Virus record (IMG/VR): IMGVR_UViG_3300042566_002057
Span: 1-64,000 of that record
Length of the DNA: 64,000 nt
Direction: 5' to 3' (one strand)
Source: a virus
A program made the translations under genes and the position numbers. Below, piece by piece: positions 6,416 through 48,644 of this stretch (the first letter of the stretch is position 1; every line of letters starts with the position of its first letter). The notes beneath the pieces were generated by a model. The model made no database searches and was not told the origin of the DNA. It was given only the letters and a program-made list of their open reading frames with translations.

Positions 6416-6517
6416 ATGACAACAAATCGCACACATAAACATTTTAGTAAATCGAGCAAGTGGTTTAGCACCCAGTTCGGTACTGAAAAAGTATTGCGTG
6501 ATTTGACTACACTATAA
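6416..6517 (+). CDS. Leader peptide rich in His, Phe and Trp (attenuator control region)
   Basis: A 33-codon frame starting ATG-ACA-ACA. It has His at 7 and 9, Phe at 10, 17 and 21, and Trp at 16. The next four tRNAs are Phe, His, Phe and Trp. AGTTCGG inside codons 20-22 (6474-6480) is complementary to CCGAACT (6547-6553), the 5' arm of the terminator that follows. A ribosome stalled at the His/Phe/Trp codons would leave that segment free to form an antiterminator; a completing ribosome would cover it. Layout is visible; mechanism is inferred from classical amino-acid operon attenuation. Confidence 0.75.
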   Translation: MTTNRTHKHFSKSSKWFSTQFGTEKVLRDLTTL

Positions 6518-6541: not shown

Positions 6542-6577
6542 AAGGTCCGAACTCAAAAAGTTCGGACTTTTTTGTTT
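6542..6577 (+). terminator. Attenuator terminator for Phe-His-Phe-Trp tRNAs
   Basis: GGTCCGAACT - loop - AGTTCGGACTTTTTTG: a 9-bp GC-rich hairpin followed by a U-run, 12 nt before tRNA-Phe. Its 5' arm (6547-6553) can pair with 6474-6480 in the leader frame. Confidence 0.85.
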
Positions 6578-6588
6578 TATAATAAATT

Positions 6589-6661
6589 GGAACGGTGGCA
6601 GATCAGGTGATTGCGCTGGACTGAAAATCCAGAGGAATGGGTTCGATACCCATCCGTTCCA
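6589..6661 (+). tRNA. tRNA-Phe(GAA) 1
   Basis: Complete cloverleaf: acceptor GGAACGG/CCGTTCC, anticodon stem CTGGA/TCCAG with loop CTGAAAA, T-arm with GGTTCGATACC. No encoded CCA. First gene after the His/Phe/Trp leader attenuator. Confidence 0.85.
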
Positions 6662-6738
6662 CGGAGTCCTGAAATAACAGGAAACCCCCACTCCCATATG
6701 GCAGCCAGTCCATTAACCTGGTGAAGTGGGGTTTATAT
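6661..6738 (+). other. Structured spacer, possible tRNA relic or RNA hairpin
   Basis: AACCCCCACT (about 6683) can pair with AGTGGGGTTT (about 6725), enclosing CCAG...CTGG. There is no T-arm consensus, so it is not a standard tRNA; there is no U-run, so it is not a terminator. It may be a decayed tRNA. Confidence 0.3.
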
Positions 6739-6739
6739 G

Positions 6740-6812
6740 GTGAATGTAGCTCAATCGGTAGAGCACTGGTTTGTGAAGCCAGAGGTAGCGGGATCGTAAC
6801 CCGTCGTTCACC
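6740..6812 (+). tRNA. tRNA-His(GTG)
   Basis: Acceptor GTGAATG/CGTTCAC, anticodon loop TTGTGAA (GTG), extra G just upstream (6739) and C discriminator as expected for His. The leader peptide upstream has two His codons. Confidence 0.85.
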
Positions 6813-6817
6813 CAAAA

Positions 6818-6889
6818 GGAGACTTAGCTAAGTAGGTTTAGCGTCCGGTTGAAGCCCGGAAGAGGTCGGTTCGATTCCGTCAGTCTCCA
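6818..6889 (+). tRNA. tRNA-Phe(GAA) 2
   Basis: Acceptor GGAGACT/AGTCTCC; anticodon stem TCCGG/CCGGA with loop TTGAAGC gives GAA. Second Phe gene in the operon; the T-stem has one mismatch. Confidence 0.75.
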
Positions 6890-6896
6890 CTAAAAA

Positions 6897-6969
6897 GCGT
6901 CATTTGTGTAATGGCTTAGCATCTTCGGTTCCAACCCGAAGGGTCAGGGTTCGAGTCCTTGGTGACGCG
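6897..6969 (+). tRNA. tRNA-Trp(CCA)
   Basis: Acceptor GCGTCA/TGACGC, anticodon stem TTCGG/CCGAA, loop TTCCAAC (CCA), T-arm GGGTTCGAGTCC. Matches the single Trp codon in the leader. Confidence 0.85.
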
Positions 6970-7063
6970 CAATTACAAGTATGTAATCCAATTTAACTCC
7001 GAATGAGTTAATTGAATGATGTAAGAAGATTTTAGAGTTTAATAATTATAAAATAGAAAAAAA

Positions 7064-7099
7064 ATGAAAAAGAAAATGGAAACTAAACGAAAACGTTAA
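7064..7099 (+). CDS. Candidate Lys-rich leader peptide
   Basis: An 11-codon frame (M-K-K-K-M-E-T-K-R-K-R) with five Lys codons, immediately upstream of three Lys tRNAs. A hairpin (GTGATG 7100-7105 with CATCAC 7124-7129 and an inner CTTA/TAAG) follows but has no U-run, so transcription termination is not evident. It may regulate differently, or be chance in an A-rich spacer. Confidence 0.4.
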   Translation: MKKKMETKRKR

Positions 7100-7143
7100 G
7101 TGATGGCTTACTAAGTTATAAGTCATCACATCGGAAAAATTAT

Positions 7144-7216
7144 GACTTCGTAGCTTAGTAGGTAGAGCACCTGGCTTTTAACCAGGGGGTCGCGAGTTCG
7201 ATTCTCGCCGGGGTCA
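7144..7216 (+). tRNA. tRNA-Lys(TTT) 1
   Basis: Acceptor GACTTCG/CGGGGTC, anticodon stem CCTGG/CCAGG, loop CTTTTAA. Standard length with a well-formed T-arm. Confidence 0.9.
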
Positions 7217-7227
7217 CAAGGTAATAA

Positions 7228-7315
7228 GCACCTATGGCTCAATTGGTAGAGCATCGCACTTTTAATGCGAGGGGTAGACGTAAGTCCGTTGAAGGTTCGA
7301 GTCCTTCTGGGTGCA
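7228..7315 (+). tRNA. tRNA-Lys(TTT) 2 with enlarged variable region
   Basis: Acceptor GCACCTA/TGGGTGC, anticodon stem TCGCA/TGCGA, loop CTTTTAA. The variable region is about 20 nt with a small GAC-GTAA-GTC hairpin, which is unusual for a lysine tRNA (normally 4-5 nt). Confidence 0.8.
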
Positions 7316-7321
7316 CTAAAT

Positions 7322-7396
7322 GACTTCGTATCCGTAATTGGTTTCCGGACCTGACTCTTAATCAGGGATATGTGGGTTCGAGTCCCACCGGAGTCA
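7322..7396 (+). tRNA. tRNA-Lys(CTT)
   Basis: Acceptor GACTTCG/CGGAGTC, anticodon stem CCTGA/TCAGG, loop CTCTTAA (CTT). Together with the two TTT genes it covers both Lys codons. Confidence 0.8.
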
Positions 7397-7407
7397 CAAA
7401 TATAAAT

Positions 7408-7534
7408 GGGGATGTAGCTCAGTGGTAGAGAAAACTATCTCTTTTGAAATTTTACCTCGTGAGAGTGTTGATTGAAAGAGTTACTTCGTATATTTGAAAT
7501 TATAAGGTCGTGGGTTCGAATCCCACCATCCCCA
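7408..7534 (+). tRNA. Interrupted or aberrant tRNA with ~50-nt insertion
   Basis: A 127-nt locus with a normal acceptor (GGGGATG/CATCCCC), D-arm start (TAGCTCAGTGGTAGAG) and T-arm (GTGGGTTCGAATCCCAC), but about 50 extra nt between D-arm and variable loop. The insert has its own hairpin (CTCTTTT with GAAAGAG). TTTGAAA near 7489 could be a GAA loop, but a clean anticodon stem cannot be drawn. It may be a spliced, processed or decayed tRNA. Confidence 0.45.
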
Positions 7535-7575: not shown

Positions 7576-7650
7576 ATGAAAACTATTATGTCAACATCGA
7601 AAAGTTCTAGTCGCTCGTCAAAGATGAGGGAGGTTCGATCGTATTCATAA
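7576..7650 (+). CDS. Leader peptide rich in Ser and Arg (attenuator)
   Basis: A 24-codon frame with nine or more Ser codons (TCA, TCG, AGT, TCT), including the run S-K-S-S-S-R-S-S, plus three Arg codons. It is followed by a terminator and then by tRNA-Arg and three Ser tRNAs (TGA, GCT, GGA). AGGTTCGA (7631-7638), just after the Ser-rich stretch, is exactly complementary to TCGAACCT (7679-7686) in the terminator's 5' side. Stalling at Ser or Arg codons should therefore favour antitermination (inference). Confidence 0.8.
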   Translation: MKTIMSTSKSSSRSSKMREVRSYS

Positions 7651-7672: not shown

Positions 7673-7705
7673 TAACCCTCGAACCTAAAGTTTGAGGGTT
7701 TTTTG
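7673..7705 (+). terminator. Attenuator terminator for Arg-Ser-Ser-Ser tRNAs
   Basis: AACCCTCGAAC - loop CTAAA - GTTTGAGGGTT then a U-run: an 11-bp stem with G-U pairs, 9 nt before tRNA-Arg. Overlaps the predicted antiterminator pairing with 7631-7638. Confidence 0.9.
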
Positions 7706-7713
7706 TTTTATAT

Positions 7714-7787
7714 AGTTCCATAGTTTAATTGGATAAAACACCGGATTACGGCTCCGGAGATTGAGGGTTCGAGTCCTTCTGGAACTA
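7714..7787 (+). tRNA. tRNA-Arg(ACG)
   Basis: Acceptor AGTTCCA/TGGAACT, anticodon stem CCGGA/TCCGG, loop TTACGGC (ACG). The A at position 34 is normally modified to inosine by TadA. Confidence 0.85.
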
Positions 7788-7793
7788 CAAATT

Positions 7794-7880
7794 GGAAAAG
7801 TAAGAGCAGTTGGTCTAAGCTCGGCGGTCTTGAAAACCGTAGGCCCTAGTGGTGTGTGAGTTCGAGTCTCACCTTTTCCG
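7794..7880 (+). tRNA. tRNA-Ser(TGA)
   Basis: Class II tRNA with acceptor GGAAAAG/CTTTTCC, anticodon loop CTTGAAA, long variable arm and G discriminator, as in serine tRNAs. Confidence 0.85.
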
Positions 7881-7885
7881 CAAAA

Positions 7886-13684: not shown

Positions 13685-13703
13685 TAAAACAATTAAAGAA
13701 ATG

Positions 13704-13778
13704 ATGACAACAGTTGCAACATATTATTATGAGGTCGAGAGCAAAAGCTCCGTCAGACGAGTATTAGTTATGTCGTAA
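13704..13778 (+). CDS. Leader peptide with Tyr-Tyr-Tyr (attenuator)
   Basis: A 24-codon frame starting M-T-T like two other leaders (an extra in-frame ATG is directly upstream at 13701). It has three consecutive Tyr codons at positions 7-9, followed by Glu. The first downstream gene is tRNA-Tyr. GTCAGAC (13752-13758) pairs exactly with GTCTGAC (13807-13813) in the terminator. Glu codons at 10 and 12 might also sense Glu charging, since a Glu tRNA follows, although that gene has its own promoter. Confidence 0.78.
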   Translation: MTTVATYYYEVESKSSVRRVLVMS

Positions 13779-13799: not shown

Positions 13800-13836
13800 A
13801 AACCCAGTCTGACTTCAGATTGGGTTTTTTGTTTTT
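13800..13836 (+). terminator. Attenuator terminator before tRNA-Tyr
   Basis: AACCCAGTCT - loop GACTTC - AGATTGGGTT and a U-run; 10-bp stem with one G-U. The 5' arm also pairs with 13752-13758 in the leader. Confidence 0.9.
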
Positions 13837-13846
13837 AAATTAATTT

Positions 13847-13914
13847 GGGATGGGTTATGGTGACGGCCGGATCTGTAAAATCCTAGCAGGTGAGTTCGAG
13901 TCTCACGCATCCCA
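13847..13914 (+). tRNA. tRNA-Tyr(GTA) 1, short form
   Basis: 68 nt. Acceptor GGGATG/CATCCC, loop CTGTAAA (GTA), T-arm GTGAGTTCGAGTCTCAC. It lacks the long variable arm usual for bacterial tRNA-Tyr and has a short D-region. Confidence 0.65.
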
Positions 13915-13919
13915 CAAAT

Positions 13920-13954
13920 GGTCCTGTCGACTAATGGTTAGGTCAACACCCTTA
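13920..13954 (+). pseudogene. 5' half of a Glu-type tRNA
   Basis: GGTCCTGTCGACTAATGG and following bases resemble the first half of the intact Glu tRNA at 14020, but the sequence changes to A-rich promoter DNA inside the anticodon loop. It looks like a duplication or recombination remnant. Confidence 0.6.
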
Positions 13955-13975
13955 AAAAATAAAAACAAAAAAGAT

Positions 13976-14006
13976 ATTGTGGATTAAAAAAGTTTAATTA
14001 TCTTTG
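13976..14006 (+). promoter_or_regulatory. Promoter of tRNA-Glu
   Basis: TTG near 13978 and TATCTTTG at 13999-14006, placed directly before tRNA-Glu. Confidence 0.6.
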
Positions 14007-14019
14007 TAAAACAAAAGAC

Positions 14020-14091
14020 GGTCCCATCGTCTAACGGTTAGGACATTAGGTTTTCATCCTAAAAATCGGAGTTCGATTCTCCGTGGGACTA
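14020..14091 (+). tRNA. tRNA-Glu(TTC) 1
   Basis: Acceptor GGTCCCA/TGGGACT, D-arm GTCTAACGGTTAGGAC, anticodon stem TTAGG/CCTAA with loop TTTTCAT. A good substrate candidate for the phage GluRS at 22159. Confidence 0.88.
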
Positions 14092-14186
14092 CAAATGTCG
14101 GAGTAATTAACCGATACTAACAAGAAGATGTATCATATATCGCAGTGAGATTTGGTACCAGTAATTTCTGATATGTCTACTTGAAT
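14092..14186 (+). other. Unassigned spacer in tRNA cluster 2
   Basis: About 95 nt with partial pairings (CATATATC with GATATG) and no reading frame longer than a few codons. Possibly a decayed tRNA; nothing definite can be seen. Confidence 0.3.
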
Positions 14187-14265
14187 AACTGCTTATGGTG
14201 TAAATTGGTTTGCACGTCGGTCACTAAGGCCGAAGGGTTATAGGTTCGAGTCCTATGGGTAGTTC
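14187..14265 (+). tRNA. tRNA of uncertain identity (loop reads CTA)
   Basis: Acceptor AACTGCT/GGGTAGTT with G-U pairs, anticodon stem TCGGT/GCCGA, loop CACTAAG, T-arm TATAGGTTCGAGTCCTATG. Read literally the anticodon is CTA (amber), but position 33 is A rather than the near-universal U, so the assignment is doubtful. TAG is used as a stop at least once in the window. Confidence 0.45.
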
Positions 14266-14271
14266 AACATT

Positions 14272-14352
14272 GGAAGGTGGCAGAGTGGTTAAATGCGGCG
14301 GACTGTAAATCCGCTCTCTTACGAGTACGGGGGTTCGAATCCCTCTCTTCCA
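14272..14352 (+). tRNA. tRNA-Tyr(GTA) 2
   Basis: Class II tRNA. Acceptor GGAAGG/CTCTTCC, anticodon stem GCGGA/TCCGC, loop CTGTAAA, long variable arm. The canonical Tyr form, unlike the gene at 13847. Confidence 0.88.
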
Positions 14353-14448
14353 ACAAATAATATAATACTGTATCATGATGTTCCATGATTGAAAGTTTAT
14401 AATAGGGAAAAGAAAACTTTTTATATATACAATAATATAAATAATACA

Positions 14449-14526
14449 ATGAAGAATTTACTTAACATATCAGCATTTATAGCGAACGGCGCGGGGAGTG
14501 ACCGTAGTTGGCTGGTTGTTATGTAA
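14449..14526 (+). CDS. Leader peptide with Ala/Gly and AUA-Ile (attenuator)
   Basis: A 25-codon frame containing S-A-F-I-A-N-G-A-G-S: three Ala, two Gly, and two Ile codons that are both the rare ATA. Downstream tRNAs are an Ile-like one (loop reading TAT, cognate to ATA), Gly, Ala, Gly and Ala. GGCTGG plus TT (14510-14517) can pair with AACCCAGTC (14554-14562) of the terminator with one bulge. No TAnnTTTG box is seen upstream; a TATATATA-like stretch at about 14421 may be a late element. Confidence 0.7.
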   Translation: MKNLLNISAFIANGAGSDRSWLVVM

Positions 14527-14553: not shown

Positions 14554-14583
14554 AACCCAGTCAGAAATGATTGGGTTTTTTTA
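14554..14583 (+). terminator. Attenuator terminator before Ile-like/Gly/Ala tRNAs
   Basis: AACCCAGTCA - GAAA tetraloop - TGATTGGGTT followed by seven or more T's; 10-bp stem with one G-U. Confidence 0.92.
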
Positions 14584-14586
14584 TTT

Positions 14587-14667
14587 CGGCAAGTACCGTT
14601 GGAATCTTATACATTCTATACACGTAGCGGGAAGTTGAAAACGTGGGTTCGAATCCCACCTTGCCGA
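14587..14667 (+). tRNA. Atypical tRNA, anticodon possibly TAT (Ile)
   Basis: Acceptor CGGCAAG/CTTGCCG and T-arm GTGGGTTCGAATCCCAC are good. GGAAT/ATTCT with loop CTTATAC gives TAT, but then the D-region is too short and the variable region too long. Ends resemble the class II locus at 20111. Probably functional only if it folds unusually. Confidence 0.5.
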
Positions 14668-14679
14668 CAAATGATACAA

Positions 14680-14753
14680 GCGGGTATCGTATAATGGTTT
14701 AATTACACCGGCCTTCCAAGTCGGTGATGTCGGTTCGATTCCGGTTACCCGCA
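14680..14753 (+). tRNA. tRNA-Gly(TCC)
   Basis: Acceptor GCGGGTA/TACCCGC, loop CTTCCAA (TCC), T-arm CGGTTCGATTCCG. Confidence 0.88.
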
Positions 14754-14758
14754 CAAAT

Positions 14759-14834
14759 GGGCTAGCATGTTCCAAGGCTTCGGCGACTTACCCTTGCAAG
14801 GTAGGTGTGGTGGGTTCGATTCCCATCTGGTCCA
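14759..14834 (+). tRNA. tRNA-Ala(TGC)
   Basis: Acceptor GGGCTAG/CTGGTCC with G-U pairs, anticodon stem TACC/GGTA, loop CTTGCAA (TGC), T-arm GGGTTCGATTCCC. The D-region is somewhat long. Confidence 0.75.
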
Positions 14835-14855
14835 CAAAAAAAATAAATATGAGGA

Positions 14856-14981
14856 ATGAAAGTAGTAATTAAAGGCGAATTTAAATCAAGTAAAGTAAAT
14901 CTAAGAAATTCAGAAGAAATTAAATTAGATGTTTATTTAGAAAGACTAATTAAAAAGATTAAAAAGAGAATTAAAAAATAA
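14856..14981 (+). CDS. Small Lys-rich hypothetical protein inside tRNA cluster 2
   Basis: A 41-codon frame beginning M-K-V-V-I-K-G-E-F-K and ending in a basic helix (I-K-K-I-K-K-R-I-K-K). It has no terminator after it and no Gly/Ala enrichment, so it does not behave like the attenuator leaders. Probably a small nucleic-acid-binding protein, or chance. Confidence 0.4.
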   Translation: MKVVIKGEFKSSKVNLRNSEEIKLDVYLERLIKKIKKRIKK

Positions 14982-14986
14982 AATAA

Positions 14987-15060
<74 letters not shown>

Positions 15061-15066
15061 CAAAAT

Positions 15067-15100
15067 GCCGGGTGATCCACCGTTGAATCACGGTGCCGGC
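15067..15100 (+). other. GC-rich hairpin between two tRNAs
   Basis: GCCGG pairs with CCGGC, and inside either GTGAT/ATCAC or CACCG/CGGTG can form, giving alternative folds. It has no U-run. It may be a tRNA-processing signal or a relic. Confidence 0.35.
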
Positions 15101-15104
15101 TCCA

Positions 15105-15178
15105 GGGGGATTAGCTCATTTGGCTAGAGCGCTTGTCTGGCAGACAAGAGGTGACGAGTTCAATCCTCGTATCCTCCA
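15105..15178 (+). tRNA. tRNA-Ala(GGC)
   Basis: Acceptor GGGGGAT/ATCCTCC, anticodon stem CTTGT/ACAAG, loop CTGGCAG (GGC). Confidence 0.88.
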
Positions 15179-15180
15179 CA

Positions 15181-19918: not shown

Positions 19919-20032
19919 ATGAGAACAAATAATACAAATATGATGAACCTGACACTCAATGTGGTGAATATTACGTTATGTAATATTAGACCGTCTGAGG
20001 GTTCCTTCCTATTTAGAAAATTTGTCTCGTAA
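19919..20032 (+). CDS. Leader peptide rich in Asn, Thr, Leu, Val, Met, Ile, Cys, Arg (attenuator)
   Basis: A 37-codon frame with seven Asn, four Thr, three Met, plus Leu, Val, Ile, a single Cys and three AGA Arg codons (for example M-M-N-L-T-L-N-V-V-N-I-T-L-C-N-I-R). The 15-gene cluster that follows contains Arg(TCT, reading AGA), Asn, Thr x2, Leu x4, Val x2, Ile, Cys and Met. TCTGAGGGTTC (19994-20004), right after this stretch, is perfectly complementary over 11 nt to GAACCCTCAGA (20064-20074) in the terminator. Confidence 0.8.
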   Translation: MRTNNTNMMNLTLNVVNITLCNIRPSEGSFLFRKFVS

Positions 20033-20063
20033 AATGTGACGTATTTATAACTAAATATAAAAA

Positions 20064-20097
20064 GAACCCTCAGATAAAAATCTGAGGGTTTTTTTAT
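20064..20097 (+). terminator. Attenuator terminator before tRNA cluster 3
   Basis: AACCCTCAGAT - AAAA - ATCTGAGGGTT then seven T's: a perfect 11-bp stem. Competes with the 11-bp leader pairing at 19994-20004. Confidence 0.93.
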
Positions 20098-20110: not shown

Positions 20111-20195
20111 CGGTAGGTACCCGAGCGGTCTTCAGGGACCAGTCTGATACACTGGGTGAGAAATCACAACGTGGGTTCAAATCCCACCCTACCGA
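20111..20195 (+). tRNA. Class II tRNA with GAT (Ile) anticodon
   Basis: Acceptor CGGTAGG/CCTACCG, serine-like D-region (TACCCGAGCGGTC), anticodon stem CCAGT/ACTGG, loop CTGATAC (GAT), and a variable arm GTGA-GAAA-TCAC. Ile tRNAs are normally class I, and SerRS reads the long arm rather than the anticodon, so charging identity is uncertain. Confidence 0.65.
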
Positions 20196-20203
20196 CAAAA
20201 TAT

Positions 20204-20275
20204 GGCTCCTTCGTCCAATGGATAGGACGTCGCTCTTCTAAAGCGAAGATACTGGTTCGAATCCAGTAGGGGCTA
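20204..20275 (+). tRNA. tRNA-Arg(TCT)
   Basis: Anticodon stem TCGCT/AGCGA, loop CTTCTAA; acceptor GGCTCCT/AGGGGCT. Reads AGA/AGG. Confidence 0.88.
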
Positions 20276-20285
20276 CAAATAAAAT

Positions 20286-20367
20286 GCCGAGGTGGTGGAA
20301 TGGTAGACACACCAGTTTAAGAAGCTGGTATCCTCAGGGTGTGAGAGTTCGAGTCTCTCCCTCGGTA
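20286..20367 (+). tRNA. tRNA-Leu(AAG)
   Basis: Acceptor GCCGAGG/CCTCGGT, D-arm GTGGAATGGTAGACAC as in Leu tRNAs, anticodon stem CCAGT/GCTGG, loop TTAAGAA (AAG), short class II arm. Confidence 0.8.
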
Positions 20368-20373
20368 CAAAAT

Positions 20374-20462
20374 GGGCTTGTAGCTGATTTGGTTTTAGCT
20401 GGTGACTGTTAATCACTGTATGAAAAATTGAAATAAAGTAGGTTCGAATCCTACCTGGCCCG
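20374..20462 (+). tRNA. tRNA-Asn(GTT) with enlarged variable region
   Basis: Acceptor GGGCTTG/CTGGCCC, anticodon stem GTGA/TCAC, loop CTGTTAA (GTT). An A-rich variable region of about 20 nt is abnormal for Asn. Seven Asn codons lie in the leader. Confidence 0.75.
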
Positions 20463-20468
20463 CAAATC

Positions 20469-20539
20469 GCCCCGATGGCGTAAAGGTAGCGTATCTCTTT
20501 TACATGGAGAAGGCAGTGGTTCGATACCACTTCGGGGTA
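20469..20539 (+). tRNA. tRNA-Val(TAC)
   Basis: Acceptor GCCCCGA/TCGGGGT, anticodon stem TCTCT/GGAGA, loop TTTACAT (TAC). Confidence 0.82.
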
Positions 20540-20546
20540 CTAAAAT

Positions 20547-20619
20547 TGTCAGTTAGCTCATTTGGTAGAGCACTTGTCTGATACACAAGAGGTGGTGGGA
20601 TCGTAACCCGCACTGACAA
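20547..20619 (+). tRNA. tRNA-Ile(GAT)
   Basis: Acceptor TGTCAGT/ACTGACA, anticodon stem CTTGT/ACAAG, loop CTGATAC. Normal class I form, unlike the locus at 20111 with the same anticodon loop. Confidence 0.85.
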
Positions 20620-20625
20620 CAACAA

Positions 20626-20708
20626 GCACCTGTGGTCGAGTGGTGTCGTAAGACGAGAGGCACTGGATTGCAAACCCAGTCACGGGGGTTCGAATCCCTC
20701 CAGGTGCT
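20626..20708 (+). tRNA. tRNA-Cys(GCA)
   Basis: Acceptor GCACCTG/CAGGTGC, loop TTGCAAA (GCA), U discriminator as in Cys tRNAs. An enlarged D-region has a small GTCGTAAGAC hairpin. Confidence 0.82.
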
Positions 20709-20716
20709 CAAAATAT

Positions 20717-20788
20717 GCTGATGTCGTATAATGGTTATTACATTGCCTTTGTAACGCAAATATGTGGGTTCGACTCCCTCCATCAGCT
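20717..20788 (+). tRNA. tRNA-Thr(TGT)
   Basis: Acceptor GCTGATG/CATCAGC, anticodon stem TTGC/GCAA, loop TTTGTAA (TGT). Confidence 0.82.
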
Positions 20789-20794
20789 CTAAAA

Positions 20795-20866
20795 TGTCTC
20801 GTAGTTTAATGGGAAAACGTTACCTTGACATGGTAAAGAGAGTGGGATCGTTACCCACCGAGACAA
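20795..20866 (+). tRNA. tRNA-Val(GAC)
   Basis: Acceptor TGTCTCG/CGAGACA, anticodon stem TTACC/GGTAA, loop TTGACAT (GAC). Confidence 0.85.
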
Positions 20867-20883
20867 CAAAAAATAATGGATGG

Positions 20884-20966
20884 TGATTGCAAGGGTTACT
20901 TCGTTTAATGACTAAACAATTGACTTTTAATCAATCTACACTGGTTCGATCCCAGTAGTATATCAC
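20884..20966 (+). tRNA. Degenerate Lys-type tRNA (TTT)
   Basis: Anticodon stem ATTGA/TCAAT with loop CTTTTAA, and T-arm ACTGGTTCGATCCCAGT, are good. The acceptor pairs poorly (GTGAT with ATCAC, misplaced) and the D-region is enlarged with GTTACTTCGT, a string also present in the insert of the tRNA at 7408. Confidence 0.5.
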
Positions 20967-20996
20967 TCTTCAAGGCTTTCCTCCGTTATTTTATTT

Positions 20997-21069
20997 GCCT
21001 CTATGACGTAATTGGCAGTCGTATGCGCCTTAGAAGCGTAGTGTCCGAGTTCGAATCTCGGTAGAGGTA
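20997..21069 (+). tRNA. tRNA-Leu(TAG), class I form
   Basis: Acceptor GCCTCTA/TAGAGGT, anticodon stem TGCGC/GCGTA, loop CTTAGAA (TAG). The variable loop is only about 5 nt, whereas bacterial Leu tRNAs normally carry a long arm. Confidence 0.82.
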
Positions 21070-21083
21070 CAAACAAAACGAAT

Positions 21084-21156
21084 GCCCCGGTGACGTAATT
21101 GGCAGTCGTATCCGGCTTAAAATCGGAGTGTGCGGGTTCGAATCCCGTCTGGGGTA
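21084..21156 (+). tRNA. tRNA-Leu(TAA), class I form
   Basis: Acceptor GCCCCGG/CTGGGGT, anticodon stem TCCGG/TCGGA, loop CTTAAAA (TAA); short variable loop. D-arm nearly identical to the gene at 20997. Confidence 0.8.
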
Positions 21157-21164
21157 CAAAATAA

Positions 21165-21237
21165 GCAGTTATCGTATAATCGGTGATTACACGTCCTTGG
21201 TAAGGATGAGACCCCAGTTCGATCCTGGGTATCTGCT
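21165..21237 (+). tRNA. tRNA-Thr(GGT)
   Basis: Acceptor GCAGTTA/TATCTGC with one mismatch, anticodon stem CGTCC/GGATG, loop TTGGTAA (GGT). Confidence 0.78.
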
Positions 21238-21243
21238 CTAAAT

Positions 21244-21313
21244 GCCGCGGCTTAGTGGAAAAGGACATTGGCTCATATCCGATGTTAAGTGAGTTCGAAC
21301 CTCATACGCGGTA
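21244..21313 (+). tRNA. tRNA-Met/Ile2 (CAT)
   Basis: Acceptor GCCGCGG/ACGCGGT, paired at 1:72, so not an initiator type. Anticodon stem ATTGG/CCGAT, loop CTCATAT. Could be elongator Met or, if lysidine-modified, Ile2. Short D-region. Confidence 0.72.
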
Positions 21314-21323
21314 CTAATAAAAA

Positions 21324-21396
21324 GCCTCTATGACGTAATTGGTAGTCGTATTTGTCTCAAAAGCAAAGTGTCCGGATTCGAATTCCGGTAGAGGTA
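21324..21396 (+). tRNA. tRNA-Leu(CAA), class I form
   Basis: Acceptor GCCTCTA/TAGAGGT identical to the gene at 20997, anticodon stem TTTGT/GCAAA, loop CTCAAAA (CAA); short variable loop. Probably a tandem relative of the TAG gene. Confidence 0.82.
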
Positions 21397-22092
21397 CTAA
21401 GAAAGTATATAACTTTCAAGTTTATCAAAGTACTCTAAATCTACAAGATAGTATTCGTCACATATAAAAGTAATCTCTTGTAAATTGACTTTATTTATAT
21501 TACCCTCTTGATATCCATTGACTATGTAGTTTACATCACTTAGAACTTCATCAGTAATTTCTATATTATTGTATTCTTTATACCAATCAAAATTATCTCT
21601 TAATTCGGTAAAAAGATCATCTATATTTGGATTCCAAAAATATCTAAATCCATTTTTAGGAAAAAACATATATGTGTTTTTTAGTCTGTCTGGTCCAGCA
21701 TAATCAGATGCAATAGAAAGATTTTTAGTAGCAAACACACCACGACTTCTAAGTGGTATTCCAAATTTTCTTTCTAGACCTTTATTTATCAGTTCATTTA
21801 TTTCCCAATTTGTGTCTTTTGCTTTTCTTTTTTCGATTGGTTCTATCTTCCAAACTCCATCCAATATATTTGTTTGATTAACAGGTTCTTTATAATCCAT
21901 TTTATTTCTAAACATTTCCGCCTCCCATGCTGTGTCAGGACTAGTTAAAAATCCTCTATATAAAGAACTTATTCTATTAGTTTTTAGAAGATTTAAAAAT
22001 TCACCACATTCAGATTCTAAGATATCTACCATCTTCTCAAATGTATTATCATTATTTTCTGTAAAAATTCTAAATTCTTTGAGGTATTTCAT
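21397..22092 (-). CDS. Putative capsid-targeted protein, ADP-ribosyltransferase-like
   Basis: A 231-residue protein starting M-K-Y-L-K-E-F-R-I-F-T-E-N. S-L-Y-R-G-F (about 43-48) and R-S-R-G-V-F-A-T-K-N (about 117-126), followed by an S-D-Y-A-G segment, resemble the first two motifs (R, then a strand with T/S) of ADP-ribosyltransferase folds seen in other phage proteins. The catalytic Glu cannot be pinned down. T4 packages such enzymes (Alt) to modify host RNA polymerase at infection; a similar role is possible. Late-type element 5 nt upstream. Confidence 0.5.
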   Translation of the reverse strand: MKYLKEFRIFTENNDNTFEKMVDILESECGEFLNLLKTNRISSLYRGFLTSPDTAWEAEMFRNKMDYKEPVNQTNILDGVWKIEPIEKRKAKDTNWEINELINKGLERKFGIPLRSRGVFATKNLSIASDYAGPDRLKNTYMFFPKNGFRYFWNPNIDDLFTELRDNFDWYKEYNNIEITDEVLSDVNYIVNGYQEGNINKVNLQEITFICDEYYLVDLEYFDKLESYILS

Positions 22093-22158: not shown

Positions 22159-23616
22159 ATGAAAAATATTGTTACAAGAATTGCGCCTTCTCCTACAGGA
22201 CCATTTGCTCATATTGGAAATGTTAGAACCTTACTTTATAACTACTTTCTTGCTAAAAGACACGGTGGTAAATTCATTGTTCGTTTAGAAGATACAGATC
22301 GTGACCGTTATACACCATCGTTTTTAACATATTTCAAAGATATGTGTGATTGGCTTGGAATAGTTCCAGATGCTTCTTACTGGAATCCTGATCCAACTAT
22401 TGGTTCTTTTACACAATCAGAAAGAGATTACTCTAAATATGTTAAATTCTTACTAGATAATGGTCTGGCTTATTACGCTTTTGACACTAAGGATGATTTA
22501 GATTCTCTTAAATCAAAAGGTCTTAAATATGACGCGACTACTCGTATGTCTATGAATAACTCTTTGACTAATCCATCAACTGATTTGATGTTACAAAGTG
22601 GTGTTCCCTATGTTATTCGTTTCGCAGTAACTCCTGATGTTGATATCACTTTTGATGATGCTATTTTAGGAACTATTACTATAAACACAAATACACTTGA
22701 TGATAAAGTTCTTATTAAGTCTAATGGTATTGGTTCTTATCATCTTTGTAATGTTTGCGACGACCACGATATGGGAGTTACTCATGTTCTTAGAGGTAAC
22801 GAGTGGGTAAATTCTACACCTTTTCATATTCTAATGTATAATGCTCTTGGATGGGATGTTCCAACATTTGCTCACTTACCATTAATTATGAATCCGGATG
22901 GTAAGGGAAAGTTATCAAAAAGAACAGCAATGAAGTATGGTATTCCAATTGCTCCAATCGGATATACCGATGATTCAGGTACTTATGTTCCTGGTTGGAA
23001 GGATTTAGGATATGATCCTAAGGCATTTATGAACGCACTTGCTCTTATCGGTTGGAACCCAGGAGACGATGTTGAAATTATGTCAATGAGTGGTATGATT
23101 AATTCATTCTCTTTAGATAGAGTTAATAAATCAGGTGCTCGTTTTGATATGGATAAAGCAAAGTGGATTAACGCTTATCATTTAAGAATGACCTCAAACT
23201 CTTGTCTTAAACCTTTTATCAATATAAAAGACGATAGATACTCTGATGATAAGTTAGATATGATTATTAATTTGGCTAAAGAAAGATCAAACTTCAAGTC
23301 TGACTTAAATGTAATTGTTGATTTATTTTACAATAATCCTATCATAACAGATGTTAAAAAGTTAGATGATAATTTTGTAAAAGTATTTTCTAAATTTATT
23401 TTATCTGATGTTGATTACACTAGTTCTGACTCTATCAAAGATTCTATATTGTCTGTGTGTAATGATGTTGATGTGAAAATTGGAAAAGTAATGCCTGGAT
23501 TAAGAATGGCTTTAGTTGGTGGAATTTCTGGACCAGACTTACCAACAACTATGTTTATTTTAGGTAAAGATGAAGTTATCAAAAGAATTTCAACTTCTTT
23601 ACCAGTACTAAACTAA
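22159..23616 (+). CDS. gltX: Glutamyl-tRNA synthetase
   Basis: A 485-residue protein of normal bacterial GluRS length. The class I signature R-I-A-P-S-P-T-G-P-F-A-H-I-G-N (7-21) contains the HIGH-type motif, then V-R-L-E-D-T-D-R-D-R. A K-M-S-K-S equivalent G-K-L-S-K-R is near residue 250, and a helical anticodon-binding C-terminal region follows. It charges tRNA-Glu with glutamate. The phage carries its own Glu tRNAs (14020, 44720, 44878), natural partners. Phage aminoacyl-tRNA synthetases are rare. The gene appears intact. Confidence 0.95.
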   Translation: MKNIVTRIAPSPTGPFAHIGNVRTLLYNYFLAKRHGGKFIVRLEDTDRDRYTPSFLTYFKDMCDWLGIVPDASYWNPDPTIGSFTQSERDYSKYVKFLLDNGLAYYAFDTKDDLDSLKSKGLKYDATTRMSMNNSLTNPSTDLMLQSGVPYVIRFAVTPDVDITFDDAILGTITINTNTLDDKVLIKSNGIGSYHLCNVCDDHDMGVTHVLRGNEWVNSTPFHILMYNALGWDVPTFAHLPLIMNPDGKGKLSKRTAMKYGIPIAPIGYTDDSGTYVPGWKDLGYDPKAFMNALALIGWNPGDDVEIMSMSGMINSFSLDRVNKSGARFDMDKAKWINAYHLRMTSNSCLKPFINIKDDRYSDDKLDMIINLAKERSNFKSDLNVIVDLFYNNPIITDVKKLDDNFVKVFSKFILSDVDYTSSDSIKDSILSVCNDVDVKIGKVMPGLRMALVGGISGPDLPTTMFILGKDEVIKRISTSLPVLN

Positions 23617-35218: not shown

Positions 35219-35250
35219 TTTGGTCAGATTGAAACTTATCTATATCTTTG
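35219..35250 (+). promoter_or_regulatory. Promoter of tRNA cluster 4
   Basis: TTTG at 35219-35222, TATCTTTG at 35243-35250, 20 nt apart. Confidence 0.82.
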
Positions 35251-35309: not shown

Positions 35310-35405
35310 ATGACAACAATTAACGTAAATATCGCACAAGTTAACCCGCAACCTCAGGATCAGGATCGTGAGAGAGTGGCTAACTATGTCTTTACAATAA
35401 GTTAA
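35310..35405 (+). CDS. Leader peptide with Pro-Gln-Pro-Gln-Asp-Gln-Asp (attenuator)
   Basis: A 31-codon frame starting M-T-T. Codons 13-19 read P-Q-P-Q-D-Q-D, and the following six tRNAs are Gln, Pro, Asp, Gln, Pro, Asp: an exact match of amino-acid identity. GGCTAACT (35378-35385) can pair over 8 bp (with G-U) with GGTTAGTC (35435-35442) of the terminator. The last control codon lies 12 nt before the antiterminator strand, suitable for a stalled ribosome to leave it exposed. The clearest case in the window. Confidence 0.85.
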   Translation: MTTINVNIAQVNPQPQDQDRERVANYVFTIS

Positions 35406-35427
35406 TGTTTAAGTTAAATAAATTTGT

Positions 35428-35463
35428 AAAACCCGGTTAGTCACAAACTAATCGGGTTTTTTT
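35428..35463 (+). terminator. Attenuator terminator before Gln/Pro/Asp tRNAs
   Basis: AAACCCGGTTAGT - CACAA - ACTAATCGGGTTT with T-run: a 13-bp stem with one G-U. The 5' arm overlaps the leader-complementary site. Confidence 0.93.
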
Positions 35464-35465
35464 AT

Positions 35466-35538
35466 TGTCCTATGGTGTAATTGGCAACACGTCTGGTTTT
35501 GATCCAGAAGAGTTGAGGTTCGAGCCCTTGTGGGACAG
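35466..35538 (+). tRNA. tRNA-Gln(TTG) 1
   Basis: Acceptor TGTCCTA/TGGGACA with U1-A72 and G discriminator as in Gln tRNAs; anticodon stem TCTGG/CCAGA, loop TTTTGAT. Confidence 0.88.
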
Positions 35539-35543
35539 CAAAA

Positions 35544-35617
35544 CGAGAAGTGACTAAGGTTTTAAGCACGGGCGGTCTGGAGCCGTCAGTTAGTGGGTTC
35601 GATTCCCACCTTCTCGA
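35544..35617 (+). tRNA. tRNA-Pro(TGG) 1
   Basis: Acceptor CGAGAAG/CTTCTCG, anticodon stem GGCGG/CCGTC, loop TCTGGAG (TGG). Position 33 is C, not U, which is unusual. Confidence 0.78.
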
Positions 35618-35622
35618 CAAAT

Positions 35623-35695
35623 GGTCTATTGGTGAAATGGCTTATCATCCCATCCTGTCACGATGGAGTAGACGGATCGTAACCGTCATAGACCG
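35623..35695 (+). tRNA. tRNA-Asp(GTC) 1
   Basis: Acceptor GGTCTAT/ATAGACC, anticodon stem CCATC/GATGG, loop CTGTCAC, G discriminator as in Asp tRNAs. Nearly identical to the copy at 35944. Confidence 0.9.
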
Positions 35696-35759
35696 CACAA
35701 AGTAACTGTTTGGCGGTGAAAGTACTCTTTAGAGAATAGAGTAAAATAATTCTCAATAT

Positions 35760-35842
35760 TGTGGAGTCGGCTAATTGGCAGGCCACCTGACTTTGAATCA
35801 GGGAGATAACACTCAGTGTAGGTTCGAGTCCTACCTCCACAA
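35760..35842 (+). tRNA. tRNA-Gln(TTG) 2 with long variable region
   Basis: Acceptor TGTGGAG/CTCCACA, anticodon stem CCTGA/TCAGG, loop CTTTGAA (TTG). Variable region is about 15 nt longer than in copy 1 and the discriminator is A, so charging is less certain. Confidence 0.7.
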
Positions 35843-35849
35843 CAAAAAA

Positions 35850-35937
35850 CTAGGTGTGTAGGCAATTGGAAGCCGACCTGATTTGGGGTCAGGAATGAAC
35901 ATAAAGTTCTATGTGGGTTCGAGTCCCACCACTTAGA
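35850..35937 (+). tRNA. tRNA-Pro(TGG) 2 with long variable region
   Basis: Acceptor CTAGGTG/CACTTAG, anticodon stem CCTGA/TCAGG, loop TTTGGGG (TGG). Enlarged variable region with GAAC...GTTC pairing. Confidence 0.75.
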
Positions 35938-35943
35938 CAAATT

Positions 35944-36016
35944 GGTCTATTGGTGAAATGGCTTATCATTCCATCCTGTCACGATGGAGTAGACGGATCG
36001 TAACCGTCATAGACCG
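35944..36016 (+). tRNA. tRNA-Asp(GTC) 2
   Basis: Same as the gene at 35623 except for one base in the region before the anticodon stem. Shows that the Gln-Pro-Asp set is repeated. Confidence 0.9.
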
Positions 36017-36042
36017 CAAAAATTTAGAAATTTAATATAAGT

Positions 36043-36668: not shown

Positions 36669-37121
36669 ATGAAGACCTGCGTTTACAAAATACAATTTGA
36701 TAAAAACTCTTTTGATCTCAATGATGATTATGATAGATTATCTGAAGTAGAGAAAGAAAGAATTTCGGATTTAGATGCTGAAACTTTTTTTGACTATGAA
36801 AAAGATGGAAACTATACTTGTTTTGTAATAACTACTCCAGTCGAAATGAAGAAGTATATTTCAATACTAACTAACAATCTTATTATTTGTGACTGTCAGG
36901 ATATTTCTTCAGATGTTTTAAAATTCAAATTAGATTTAGAAGAAGAGTTAAGAGACCAAATCTCAACTATCAATTCAATAAAATATAGTTTCTTTATAGA
37001 TGATATTTATGAATGGATTGAAAGTAATTTAGATATGGATATGGTTTTAGATAGAATATCAGAAGTCGGTATTGATTCTCTTTCTAAAATTGAAAAAGAT
37101 TTCCTAAATAACTTTCATTAG
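36669..37121 (+). CDS. Hypothetical acidic protein (150 aa)
   Basis: A strongly acidic, Asp/Glu-rich protein with alternating strands and helices (I-S-I-L-T-N-N-L-I-I-C-D-C near residue 63). TTTTATATATAG lies 5 nt before its start, a variant of the late-type element. No family recognised. Confidence 0.6.
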   Translation: MKTCVYKIQFDKNSFDLNDDYDRLSEVEKERISDLDAETFFDYEKDGNYTCFVITTPVEMKKYISILTNNLIICDCQDISSDVLKFKLDLEEELRDQISTINSIKYSFFIDDIYEWIESNLDMDMVLDRISEVGIDSLSKIEKDFLNNFH

Positions 37122-43814: not shown

Positions 43815-44713
43815 ACGTTCTTTGATTTATTGATTTTACAGATTCTTTGACTTCGGTCATTGATGAATGTAACGGCCGCTTATGGTCGATAAATAAACCT
43901 CGAAAGGGGGATAAAGTGGATACAAAAGCTAATTGTATCTGCGTCTTGAGAGTTCTTCGGAACAATTGAGGTCGAGTAAGCAAGTGGGGCACCACAAGTT
44001 CTGAGTAGTCGAGGGTAACACTGTAGACCAAATGAGTTTGTGACTGGGCAATTGTAGATTGTTCAGTTGACTTCGGAAGAGGAATAGGAATAACCCATAG
44101 GAATTTTGTAAGAAATAAAGACTCACCGGTTTTTACTATTGCGAGTTCCAACTCAAAAGGTGTCTTAAAGTTGAAAGACAATCAGTCGTACAGGTGGTGC
44201 TGTTGACTGACACTAATCTCTCTACCAAGAGAGTAGATAAACCGAAAGGTAAGTCGTGGTGAAGATATCTTGAAGAGTTGTGATGGAGGCATCACACGGA
44301 GTAGTCCAGTATTCTTGAGACCAAAAGTTTTGAGAGCTGAGAGGTGACCACTACTTCGACATATCTACTAGCACTAAATTTCTAACTGTTAATTGGAAAC
44401 ATTTAAAAAATAAGAAATCGAAAGTGTTACCTAGTTACTGATGAAAGGTACCTACTTAGTCGTGAGTGTTCACGGCCACTGAAGCTCGAAAGGCTGACGT
44501 GATTTCATCGAAAAACTTATAGAGGGTCGAACCTCGAATCAGCTCGCAAGGTTGAATAAGCGGATTAAATGGAGAGTAAACAGTAACTCAAGAAGTGGTT
44601 AGTCTAACTAACCGGTACTGACAGAATACTACTCAAAAGGTAGTGGATAAGAAGGGAAACAATAATCCAACTAAAGTTCTGTCGCCATAGGATGTAATCT
44701 CAGTCCTTTTTTT
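43815..44713 (+). ncRNA. Large ornate non-coding RNA (GOLLD/ROOL-like candidate)
   Basis: About 900 nt between tRNAs with no credible coding on this strand and dense hairpins. Visible ones are TGAC-TTCG-GTCA (about 43849), GTTC-TTCG-GAAC (43952-43963), CTCTC-TACCAA-GAGAG (about 44217), ACC-GAAA-GGT (44241-44250), GTGATG-GAGG-CATCAC (44280-44295) and AGC-TCGAAA-GGCT (about 44483). It ends in AGGAT...GTCCT followed by nine T's. Giant ornate RNAs such as GOLLD (~800 nt) and ROOL are known from phages next to tRNAs. Class assignment is inference from size, location and structure density. Confidence 0.6.
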
Positions 44714-46535: not shown

Positions 46536-48644
46536 ATGGAAGAAAACAAACAATACTTAGAGACTGTACCTGATGTAAGAGCAGCTCTTGAAGACGATGA
46601 TGATGATAGAGGATATGGTTCCTCAAAAAAATCAGAGTCTAAATCTAAGACTCCGGTCTTAGATACTTACAGCCGAGACCTTACTAAAATGGCCGAAGAT
46701 GGTAGACTTGATCCTATCGTAGGTAGAGAAAAAGAAATTGAAAGAGTTTCACAAATTTTATCTCGTAGAAAAAAGAACAATCCAATTTTAATTGGTGAAC
46801 CAGGTGTTGGTAAATCTTCTATTGCGGAAGGTTTAGCTTTAAGAATCGTTCAGAGAAAAGTTTCAAGATTACTTTTCAATAAAAGAATCGTTATGCTTGA
46901 CTTAGCTTCTATGGTTGCTGGTACTAAATATCGTGGTCAGTTTGAGGAAAGAATTAAAGCTCTTATGGCTGAAATGGAAAAAGAACCAGATGTAATTCTT
47001 TTCATTGATGAAATTCACACAATGATTGGGGCTGGTGGTGCTTCTGGATCATTAGATGCTTCTAATATGTTCAAACCGGCACTTGCACGTGGTGAAATCC
47101 AAATCATCGGAGCTACTACTTTGGATGAATATAGAAAACACATTGAGAAAGACGGAGCTCTTGAAAGAAGATTCCAAAAAGTAACTGTTGAACCTGCTAC
47201 TTCTGATGAGTCAATTCAGATTCTTAATAACATTAAAGACAAGTATGAATACCATCATAATGTTACTTACACTGAAGGTGCTATCAAAGCTTGTGTTGAA
47301 TTAACAAATCGTTATCTTACTGATAGACATTTACCAGATAAAGCAATTGATGCTTTAGATGAAGTAGGTGCTCGTGTTCATATTTCTAACATCAACGTTC
47401 CTAAAGAAATTACAGACATTGAGAAGAAGATTGTTGAAATTAAAGAAAAGAAAAACGATGTAATTCGTTCTCAAAAATATGAAGAGGCGGCTCGTCTTCG
47501 TGATGTTGAACGTCAACTTAATACCGAACTTGAAGAAGCAAGAAAAGCTTGGGAAGAAGAACAAAAAAATCATCGTCAAATTGTAAATGAAGAAGCTGTT
47601 GCTGAAGTTGTTTCAATGATGTGTGGTATTCCTTTACAAAAGATTTCACAAAACGAGAATGACAAACTTGCTAAGATGCCAGAGAGTATTCAAGGTAAAG
47701 TAATTGGTCAAGATGAAGCTGTTGGAAAGATTGTAAAAGCGATTCAACGTGGTCGAGTTGGTCTTAAAGATCCTAATAAACCAATTGGTTCATTTATGTT
47801 CTTAGGACCTACGGGTGTTGGTAAAACACAATTGGCTAAAGTTTTGGCGAAGTATCTATTTGACTCAGAAGATTCTTTAATTAGAATTGATATGTCTGAG
47901 TATATGGAAAAATTCGCAGTATCTCGTTTGATTGGAGCGCCCCCGGGATATGTTGGTCACGATGAAGGTGGTCAGTTAACTGAAAAAGTTAGACGTAAAC
48001 CTTATTCGGTAGTTCTTTTAGATGAGATTGAAAAAGCTCACCCTGAAGTATTTAACTTACTTCTACAAGTTCTTGATGATGGTCAATTGACTGACTCACT
48101 TGGTAGAAAAGTAAACTTTAAGAACACCATTATCATTATGACTTCTAATACTGGTTCTCGTCAGTTGAAGGACTTTGGAACTGGTGTAGGATTTGCTACT
48201 AAACACAAAGAAGATAAAAAAGATGAAGAAGCAAATGCTGTGATTGAAAAAGAACTTAAAAAGAAATTTGCTCCAGAATTCTTAAACCGTGTTGATGATG
48301 TTGTGATGTTTAACTCTCTTGAAAAAGAAGACATCAATAAAATTATCAAAATTGAGTTAGAAAGACTTGTTGATAGAGTGAAACAAATGGAATACAATCT
48401 TGAAATTACAGATAATGCCGTTGAATACATTGCTTCACAAGGATTTGATCCTCAATACGGAGCTCGTCCTCTAAAAAGAGCGATTCAGAAAAATGTAGAA
48501 GATGTTCTTACTGAAGAAATTATTACATCAAATCCAGAAAAGAATTCACTTATGATATTGGATTACAATTCTGAGGATGATAAAATGGTCGTCATTTTAG
48601 AAAAGAAGAAAAAAACTACTCGTAAGAAGAAAACTGAAGAGTAA
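46536..48644 (+). CDS. clpC: ClpC-like AAA+ unfoldase lacking the N-domain
   Basis: A 702-residue protein with two AAA+ modules. D1: G-E-P-G-V-G-K-S (87-94), I-D-E-I-H. A UVR-like coil ([11 protein letters not shown]) follows. D2: [23 protein letters not shown] near residue 550 fits the ClpP-docking loop (VGF in ClpC). The usual ~145-residue adaptor-binding N-domain is replaced by a short acidic/polar segment. It could redirect host ClpP proteolysis to new substrates. C-terminus Lys-rich. Confidence 0.9.

Follow-up and report, generated by a model that had tools for sequence, protein, structure and literature searches.

The stretch of DNA analysed here (the window, 64 kb of a 151,950-base virus record) carries, on the plus strand at 35466–36017, an operon of six tRNA genes in the order Gln(TTG) Pro(TGG) Asp(GTC) Gln(TTG) Pro(TGG) Asp(GTC). 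Upstream of it, sequence inspection identifies a Bacteroidetes-type promoter at 35219–35250 (TTTG at 35219–35222, N20, and TATCTTTG at 35243–35250), followed by an ORF at 35310–35405 encoding a 31-amino-acid leader peptide, MTTINVNIAQVNPQPQDQDRERVANYVFTIS, whose homologue in LR745206.1 is 80.6% identical. Seven consecutive codons of this frame (CCG CAA CCT CAG GAT CAG GAT, 35346–35366) specify P Q P Q D Q D, and 7 of 7 residues match the operon. An intrinsic terminator stem-loop occupies 35428–35460, with a U run reaching to about 35463. An earlier note on this DNA had described the frame and the six tRNA genes as they are found here; the hairpin that it placed between them is also present, with a stem of 14 pairs (one of them G-U) instead of the 13 bp reported.

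The same RNA is predicted to form a structure that excludes the terminator. Duplex energies and folds define region 2, the 5′ segment of a putative antiterminator (35375–35398), and region 3 (35424–35445), which consists of the 5′ arm of the terminator and the preceding bases. Their pairing forms two helices with a predicted energy of −19.9 kcal/mol, a value that none of 200 shuffled sequences attained (mean −9.8 kcal/mol). The shorter pairing proposed previously (35378–35385 with 35435–35442) is contained within this antiterminator, although the segment begins 11 nt, and not 12 nt, after the last control codon; for the extended helix the distance is 9 nt. Folding, which had been suggested as a check on the two alternative pairings, predicted both states: RNA lacking the 3′ terminator arm folded into the antiterminator, and the full RNA formed the terminator together with a protector hairpin between the antiterminator segment and the area around the first control codons. 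These folds follow the 1:2, 2:3 and 3:4 logic of classical attenuators.

Six leader units in the window

A scan of the tRNA clusters required only a terminator ahead of a tRNA gene, with a short ORF 10–50 nt upstream of that terminator; the ORF was chosen by length and distance to the terminator only, and amino-acid content was not used. The window holds five further units of the same layout, absent from the earlier note and all on the plus strand. The scan called leader MTTNRTHKHFSKSSKWFSTQFGTEKVLRDLTTL (K/W/F/H; control stretch HKHFSKSSKWFS) at 6416–6517 and its terminator at 6542–6570, ahead of the operon Phe His Phe Trp Lys Lys Lys (6589–7397), and, downstream of these, leader MKTIMSTSKSSSRSSKMREVRSYS (R/S; SKSSSRSS) at 7576–7650 and a terminator at 7674–7700, ahead of Arg(ACG) Ser(TGA) (7714–7881). 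Also called were leader MKNLLNISAFIANGAGSDRSWLVVM (G/A; IANGAG) at 14449–14526 with a terminator at 14554–14577, before Gly Gly Ala (14680–15179), and leader MRTNNTNMMNLTLNVVNITLCNIRPSEGSFLFRKFVS (I/R/L/N/V/T; control stretch NNTNMMNLTLNVVNITLCNIR) at 19919–20032. The terminator of the latter unit (20060–20095), the 5′ arm of which pairs over 12 bp with leader nucleotides 74–87, is followed by Ile Arg Leu Asn Val Ile Thr Val Leu Leu Thr Leu (20111–21397). The remaining unit comprises leader MMTTVATYYYEVESKSSVRRVLVMS (Y/E; YYYEVE) at 13701–13778, starting at either 13701 or 13704, a terminator at 13800–13827, and an operon at 13847–14354 that begins with Tyr-like and Glu-like sequences missed by ARAGORN and continues with Glu (14020) and Tyr (14271).

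Since the same layout, with other amino acids, precedes five other tRNA operons, the arrangement at the Gln/Pro/Asp operon is not due to chance. Alignment of the regions upstream of the other tRNA clusters revealed a common promoter and start region, followed by quite different short frames. Across the six leaders (K/W/F/H, R/S, Y/E, G/A, I/R/L/N/V/T and Q/P/D), 19 of 19 operon amino acids are represented in the operon's own leader, and the true assignment of leaders to operons is the best of 720 permutations. Within the window, no leader was found at the lone tRNA-Met genes (13561 and 43732) or at a cluster with a GOLLD RNA (44297–44706; Rfam RF02032, 298.9 bits), which also contains tRNA-Met and two unusual tRNA-like genes and lies behind several Bacteroidetes-type promoters.

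Some neighbouring sequences escaped tRNA calling. A 127-nt tRNA with a long insertion (7408–7534) was recognized by Rfam (45.4 bits) and missed by ARAGORN, which also left uncalled the Tyr-, Glu- and Gly/Ile-like sequences at 13847–13985 and 14585–14670, perhaps degenerate or unusual tRNAs. The Ile/Arg/Leu/Asn/Val/Thr operon is followed by a gene for glutamyl-tRNA synthetase (22159–23616; PF00749, E 3.6e-73) that has relatives in 12 IMG/VR loci.

Conservation and specificity of leaders in huge phages

Relatives were located by pattern scans of IMG/VR and one tBLASTn match, and comprised huge-phage contigs, LR745206.1 (634,780 bases) and LR756502.1 (642,428 bases). Curated huge-phage genomes of 634 and 642 kb have been published, and genomes larger than 634 kb were assigned to the Mahaphage clade, with predicted Bacteroidetes hosts (Al-Shayeb et al., PMC7162821); we infer that the two accessions are these genomes. 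The tRNA clusters of 16 contigs provided 73 distinct leaders. Search patterns were derived only from the K/W/F/H and I/L/N/V/T leader types, and the remaining types emerged blind from the scan.

In this set, leaders contain 229 of the 230 amino acids of their own operons, and leaders of other types cover 60% on average. Coverage is complete for 72 of the 73 leaders, the lone absence being Glu of the G004 L072 operon. The fraction of leader residues that match averages 0.37 for the leader's own operon and 0.15 for other operons in frame 0, and frames +1 and +2 exhibit no excess. Ten other genomes have four or more leaders each; on permutation within the genome, the true pairing came first in nine of them, at best as 1 of 5040, and second of 5040 in the remaining one. 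The leaders group into about ten types and lack mutual independence, which makes pooled p-values overly optimistic. The within-genome permutation, the frame control and the coverage rule out chance composition as the cause of the match. A weak tilt of substitutions towards third codon positions (370/436/544) was not counted as evidence.

A TAnnTTTG motif lies no more than 130 nt upstream of 57 of the 73 leaders (4.0 in shuffles), and 50 of them are preceded by the full two-box form of the promoter (0.3 in shuffles). Median spacings are 24 nt from stop codon to terminator and 17 nt from terminator to the first called tRNA. The leader ends pair with their own terminator arm at a mean of −13.7 kcal/mol (73 leaders), compared with −8.9 for the arms of other operons and −8.0 for shuffled leaders, and in 55 of 72 cases a leader pairs better with its own arm than with same-type arms of other genomes (p = 8e-8). 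In the K/W/F/H type, for instance, AGTTCGG faces CCGAACT in most leaders, and GAACTTGG faces CCAAGTTC in G010 and G016. The predicted antiterminator is weak or missing most notably in L074 (R/S), and also in L085, L089 and L096 (YEGIA) and in L080 and L061 (G-type). Region 2 of the K/W/F/H type is located some 30 nt ahead of the stop codon; unlike in trp, a ribosome halted at the stop would leave it uncovered.

These observations bear on one alternative, namely that the hairpin is a plain terminator for upstream transcription, that the small ORF is fortuitous and that the tRNAs have a promoter of their own. Terminators ahead of transcription units are indeed common, and many small frames occur in this AT-rich region; however, such an arrangement would not predict that leader and operon content match in every genome, that a promoter stands upstream of the leader, or that antiterminators are specific to their own arm. 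We regard it as highly improbable.

The correspondence also holds where operons are split or joined. Where Gln tRNAs form an operon of their own (L004, L067, L072, L082 and L105), a second leader consisting mostly of Gln codons stands before them: QQIQQQQ in L004 (20936), QYQQQQQ in L067 and L082, VQQVQQQQ in L072 and QQQQQQQ in L105. The I/R/L/N/V/T operon is divided into two parts in three contigs, each part with its own leader, LTLNVLCLRR before Arg Leu and TVNINVITITNCVNNTT before Asn Val (Ile) Cys Thr. Conversely, a joint Tyr/Glu/Ile/Gly/Ala operon is headed by one leader, EAIGGYEAG or similar, in place of separate Y/E and G/A/I leaders.

Codon choice follows the isoacceptor for arginine. 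Among leaders whose operon has tRNA-Arg ACG, 12 of 13 use CGN as the first Arg codon of the control region, and 10 of 10 with tRNA-Arg TCT use AGA (Fisher p 1e-5, which overstates independence, the leaders being related), a pattern that is repeated in the Cellulophaga phages phi38:1 and phi4:1 described below. For serine, both AGY and TCN codons occur in leaders whose called tRNA-Ser is TGA. The Arg result and the complementarity between leader codons and the anticodons of the operon tRNAs would also be expected if the leader RNA sensed tRNA directly by codon–anticodon pairing, without a ribosome, much as a T-box does. Against this, the match is bound to a single frame running from ATG to stop, both Ser codon families are used with the one called tRNA-Ser, and an Rfam scan of the window at gathering scores returned only tRNA and GOLLD, and neither a T-box nor another known RNA family. 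The T-box hallmark of a single specifier codon without a translated ORF is likewise absent, a multi-codon in-frame match being present instead. Direct sensing is accordingly a very unlikely explanation.

Several candidates from the searches were discarded. The two MAG contigs L103 and L104 from the contig pattern scan have no tRNAs and were taken as chance matches, as were L010 (start-motif pattern) and those among 15 contigs with the ILNVT pattern that lack tRNAs near the match. In LR745206, the lone tRNA-Cys close to a promoter-like match is preceded by an ordinary small frame and lacks a leader. The leader–terminator scan gave no call at the tRNA arrays of T5 and crAss001. In L100, an HNH-endonuclease-like frame lies between the leader–terminator and the Gln/Pro/Asp tRNAs, and L093 has a similar frame upstream of its tRNAs.

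Leaders in cultured Cellulophaga phages

Cellulophaga phages phi38:1 and phi4:1, which are more distant than the huge-phage relatives, have the same layout. In phi4:1 (and phi17:2), MKIQRLHLQELEQP.. precedes Pro Glu Gln His Leu Leu Arg, VQLTKTGITVIDKTKGARA.. (with a GTG start) precedes Ala Lys Ile Gly Met Asp Thr Val Arg Met, and MKTNYCTYNNSNWSFSY.. precedes Tyr Ser Asn Trp Phe. The leaders of phi38:1 are MKTIMNIATDIRTKGVK.. before Lys Ile Gly Met Asp Thr Val Arg, MKTNMTYNNFSWYSNCSFSSY.. before Ser Ser Asn Phe (with a Tyr-like tRNA in between) and MNVTLLHQEPLEQLRLP.. before Pro Glu Gln His Leu Arg. U runs stand before tRNA-Lys in phi38:1 (about 35411) and before tRNA-Pro in the phi4:1 record (about 87186). 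Every leader in phi38:1 and phi4:1 fits its own operon best, and related Calle phages have kept two of these leaders at 86–100% amino-acid identity. As both phages are cultured and carry leaders, the system is open to experiment. The starts of the leaders at 566 in phi4:1 (L107) and at 36744 and 37987 in phi38:1 (L109) are only a few bases past a TAnnTTTG-like box, and these leader mRNAs may therefore be leaderless.

Some of the phi38:1 and phi4:1 leaders are annotated as hypothetical proteins; KC821632 gp075 and NC_021798 gp077 are probably attenuator leader peptides with the annotated start placed too far upstream. Such annotations, and the conservation of the small-frame amino-acid sequence between genomes, could mean that the peptide is a functional small protein, or that the frame is a codon sink that uses up scarce tRNAs. 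However, the leaders of different operons have nothing in common beyond the start and a short N-terminus, their composition tracks the tRNAs and their end tracks the terminator arm, and we give a function of the peptide or a codon sink hardly any weight. Most tRNA clusters in giant phages with predicted Bacteroidota hosts and in cultured Cellulophaga phages start with a leader frame that lists the amino acids of the tRNAs behind it, next to a terminator that, judged by its architecture, could be switched off. Phage phi38:1 also encodes gp030 (L109 19247–20650), annotated as a tRNA-splicing ligase of the RtcB type, which fits repair of cleaved tRNAs.

A model for tRNA supply on demand

The units meet the description of an attenuator in that a short ORF with start and stop lies after a promoter and upstream of the operon, that its control codons are cognate to the operon's product, and that an intrinsic terminator separates the leader ORF from the first gene. 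An antiterminator exclusive of the terminator and 3′ of the control codons is supported by prediction and by arm specificity, less convincingly in the leaders where it is weak. We consider it very likely that each tRNA operon is under ribosome-mediated transcription attenuation and is on when its own tRNAs are short. What we observe is the architecture, the specificity for amino acids and codons, and the conservation, along with folds predicted to be exclusive; that the leader is translated, that transcription terminates, that a stall induces read-through and that a lack of tRNA is the signal are inferences made without RNA or ribosome data. The leaders with a weak or absent antiterminator, the position of region 2 in the K/W/F/H type, the mixed Ser codons and the one missing Glu count against this reading. 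The earlier note, which had read the Gln/Pro/Asp locus as a ribosome-mediated attenuator, is borne out to that same extent, for architecture and conservation and not for translation, termination or the response to tRNA.

According to this model, transcription would begin at the host-type (TAnnTTTG) promoter, and the emerging leader ORF would be translated. With the operon's tRNAs plentiful, the ribosome would clear the control codons and cover or disrupt the antiterminator segment, the terminator would fold, and transcription would end before the first tRNA gene. If one charged tRNA were scarce, the ribosome would stall on its codon, region 2 would be free to pair with region 3, and RNA polymerase would continue into the tRNA genes; the direction of the response, from tRNA shortage to an operon that is on, follows from the geometry, in which an upstream stall frees the antiterminator segment. 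Dense cognate codons in the control region make such switches sensitive, according to modelling (PMC1183508). Each operon would thereby have a feedback switch of its own; jointly the switches would serve 18 amino acids in the window and have each set of tRNAs made only when it runs short. Shortage might arise from cleavage of host tRNAs by defence nucleases, from tRNA decay during takeover, or from phage codon demand exceeding supply. Host defences that cleave tRNAs are documented, as are phage tRNAs that escape them (PMC10264068, PMC11555353), and such cleavage as the trigger of the leader switches is a plausible inference.

The same attenuation could instead respond to amino-acid starvation, that is, to uncharged tRNA. 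Classical attenuators answer to amino-acid supply (PMC1183508), and a ribosome on the leader could not distinguish few tRNAs from uncharged ones. Extra tRNA, however, gives no relief from starvation, and the operons mix chemically unrelated amino acids without a common biosynthesis (Q/P/D; K/W/F/H), so the sensed shortage is more likely one of tRNA. Representation of all operon amino acids in the leader, with the one Glu exception noted above, also fits product sensing. Starvation as the signal remains possible, though we think it unlikely.

Leader-peptide attenuation is a known class of mechanism for amino-acid operons, and what sets the phage units apart is tRNA genes as the controlled genes, for which the literature searched gave no earlier description. 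The trp and his attenuators of E. coli (PMC1183508) likewise have a short ORF, dense control codons, antiterminator and terminator folds, a protector such as the one predicted clearly for the Gln/Pro/Asp leader, and a terminator just before the genes. They differ in that they control biosynthetic enzymes; the phage leaders would control tRNA genes, can each combine the codons of as many as six or more amino acids, are found in phages and occur as six parallel copies in a single 64-kb window. In flavobacteria, leader-peptide attenuation has been inferred for amino-acid operons of Flavobacterium psychrophilum (PMC9723704), where host phylum and promoter type are the same and a leader peptide likewise precedes the operon, whereas the operons are those of amino-acid biosynthesis. 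T-box riboswitches also use a tRNA-responsive antiterminator that reads a codon; in contrast to the phage leaders, they do so without a ribosome or ORF, with one tRNA per element, and control synthetases and biosynthesis. Many clustered tRNA genes are likewise found in huge phages of the Mahaphage clade (PMC7162821) and in crAss-like and T5-type phages, and the literature searched contained no mention of leader attenuators for these arrays. Nor did it contain a report of leader-peptide control of tRNA operons in phages or bacteria; subscription papers were mostly outside the search, which leaves room for an earlier description.

The reason for tRNA genes in phages has been debated for decades, with codon compensation on one side and, on the other, replacement of the tRNAs that host defence destroys (PMC10264068, PMC11555353). 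If the switch reads shortage of exactly the tRNAs that its operon encodes, tRNAs would be made on demand, and the debate would become directly testable in cultured phages. It would also extend leader-peptide attenuation from enzymes to tRNAs themselves, with a single leader able to serve up to six or more amino acids. A practical rule is that a short frame, overlooked in annotation or labelled hypothetical, predicts the content of the tRNA operon behind it. On balance we lean towards a general, modular control of tRNA supply in Bacteroidota phages, from the 73-kb phi38:1 type to those of 640 kb, in which nearly the whole tRNA complement would reside in leader-listed operons and would replace exactly the tRNAs lost in infection, for example through host anticodon nucleases.

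Elsewhere in the window, a gene for a ClpA/B-like AAA protein at 46536 is followed by a long run of genes on the same strand up to 63837. This run includes genes for sugar-nucleotide epimerases, dehydratases and a C-methyltransferase, which suggests glycan synthesis by the phage.
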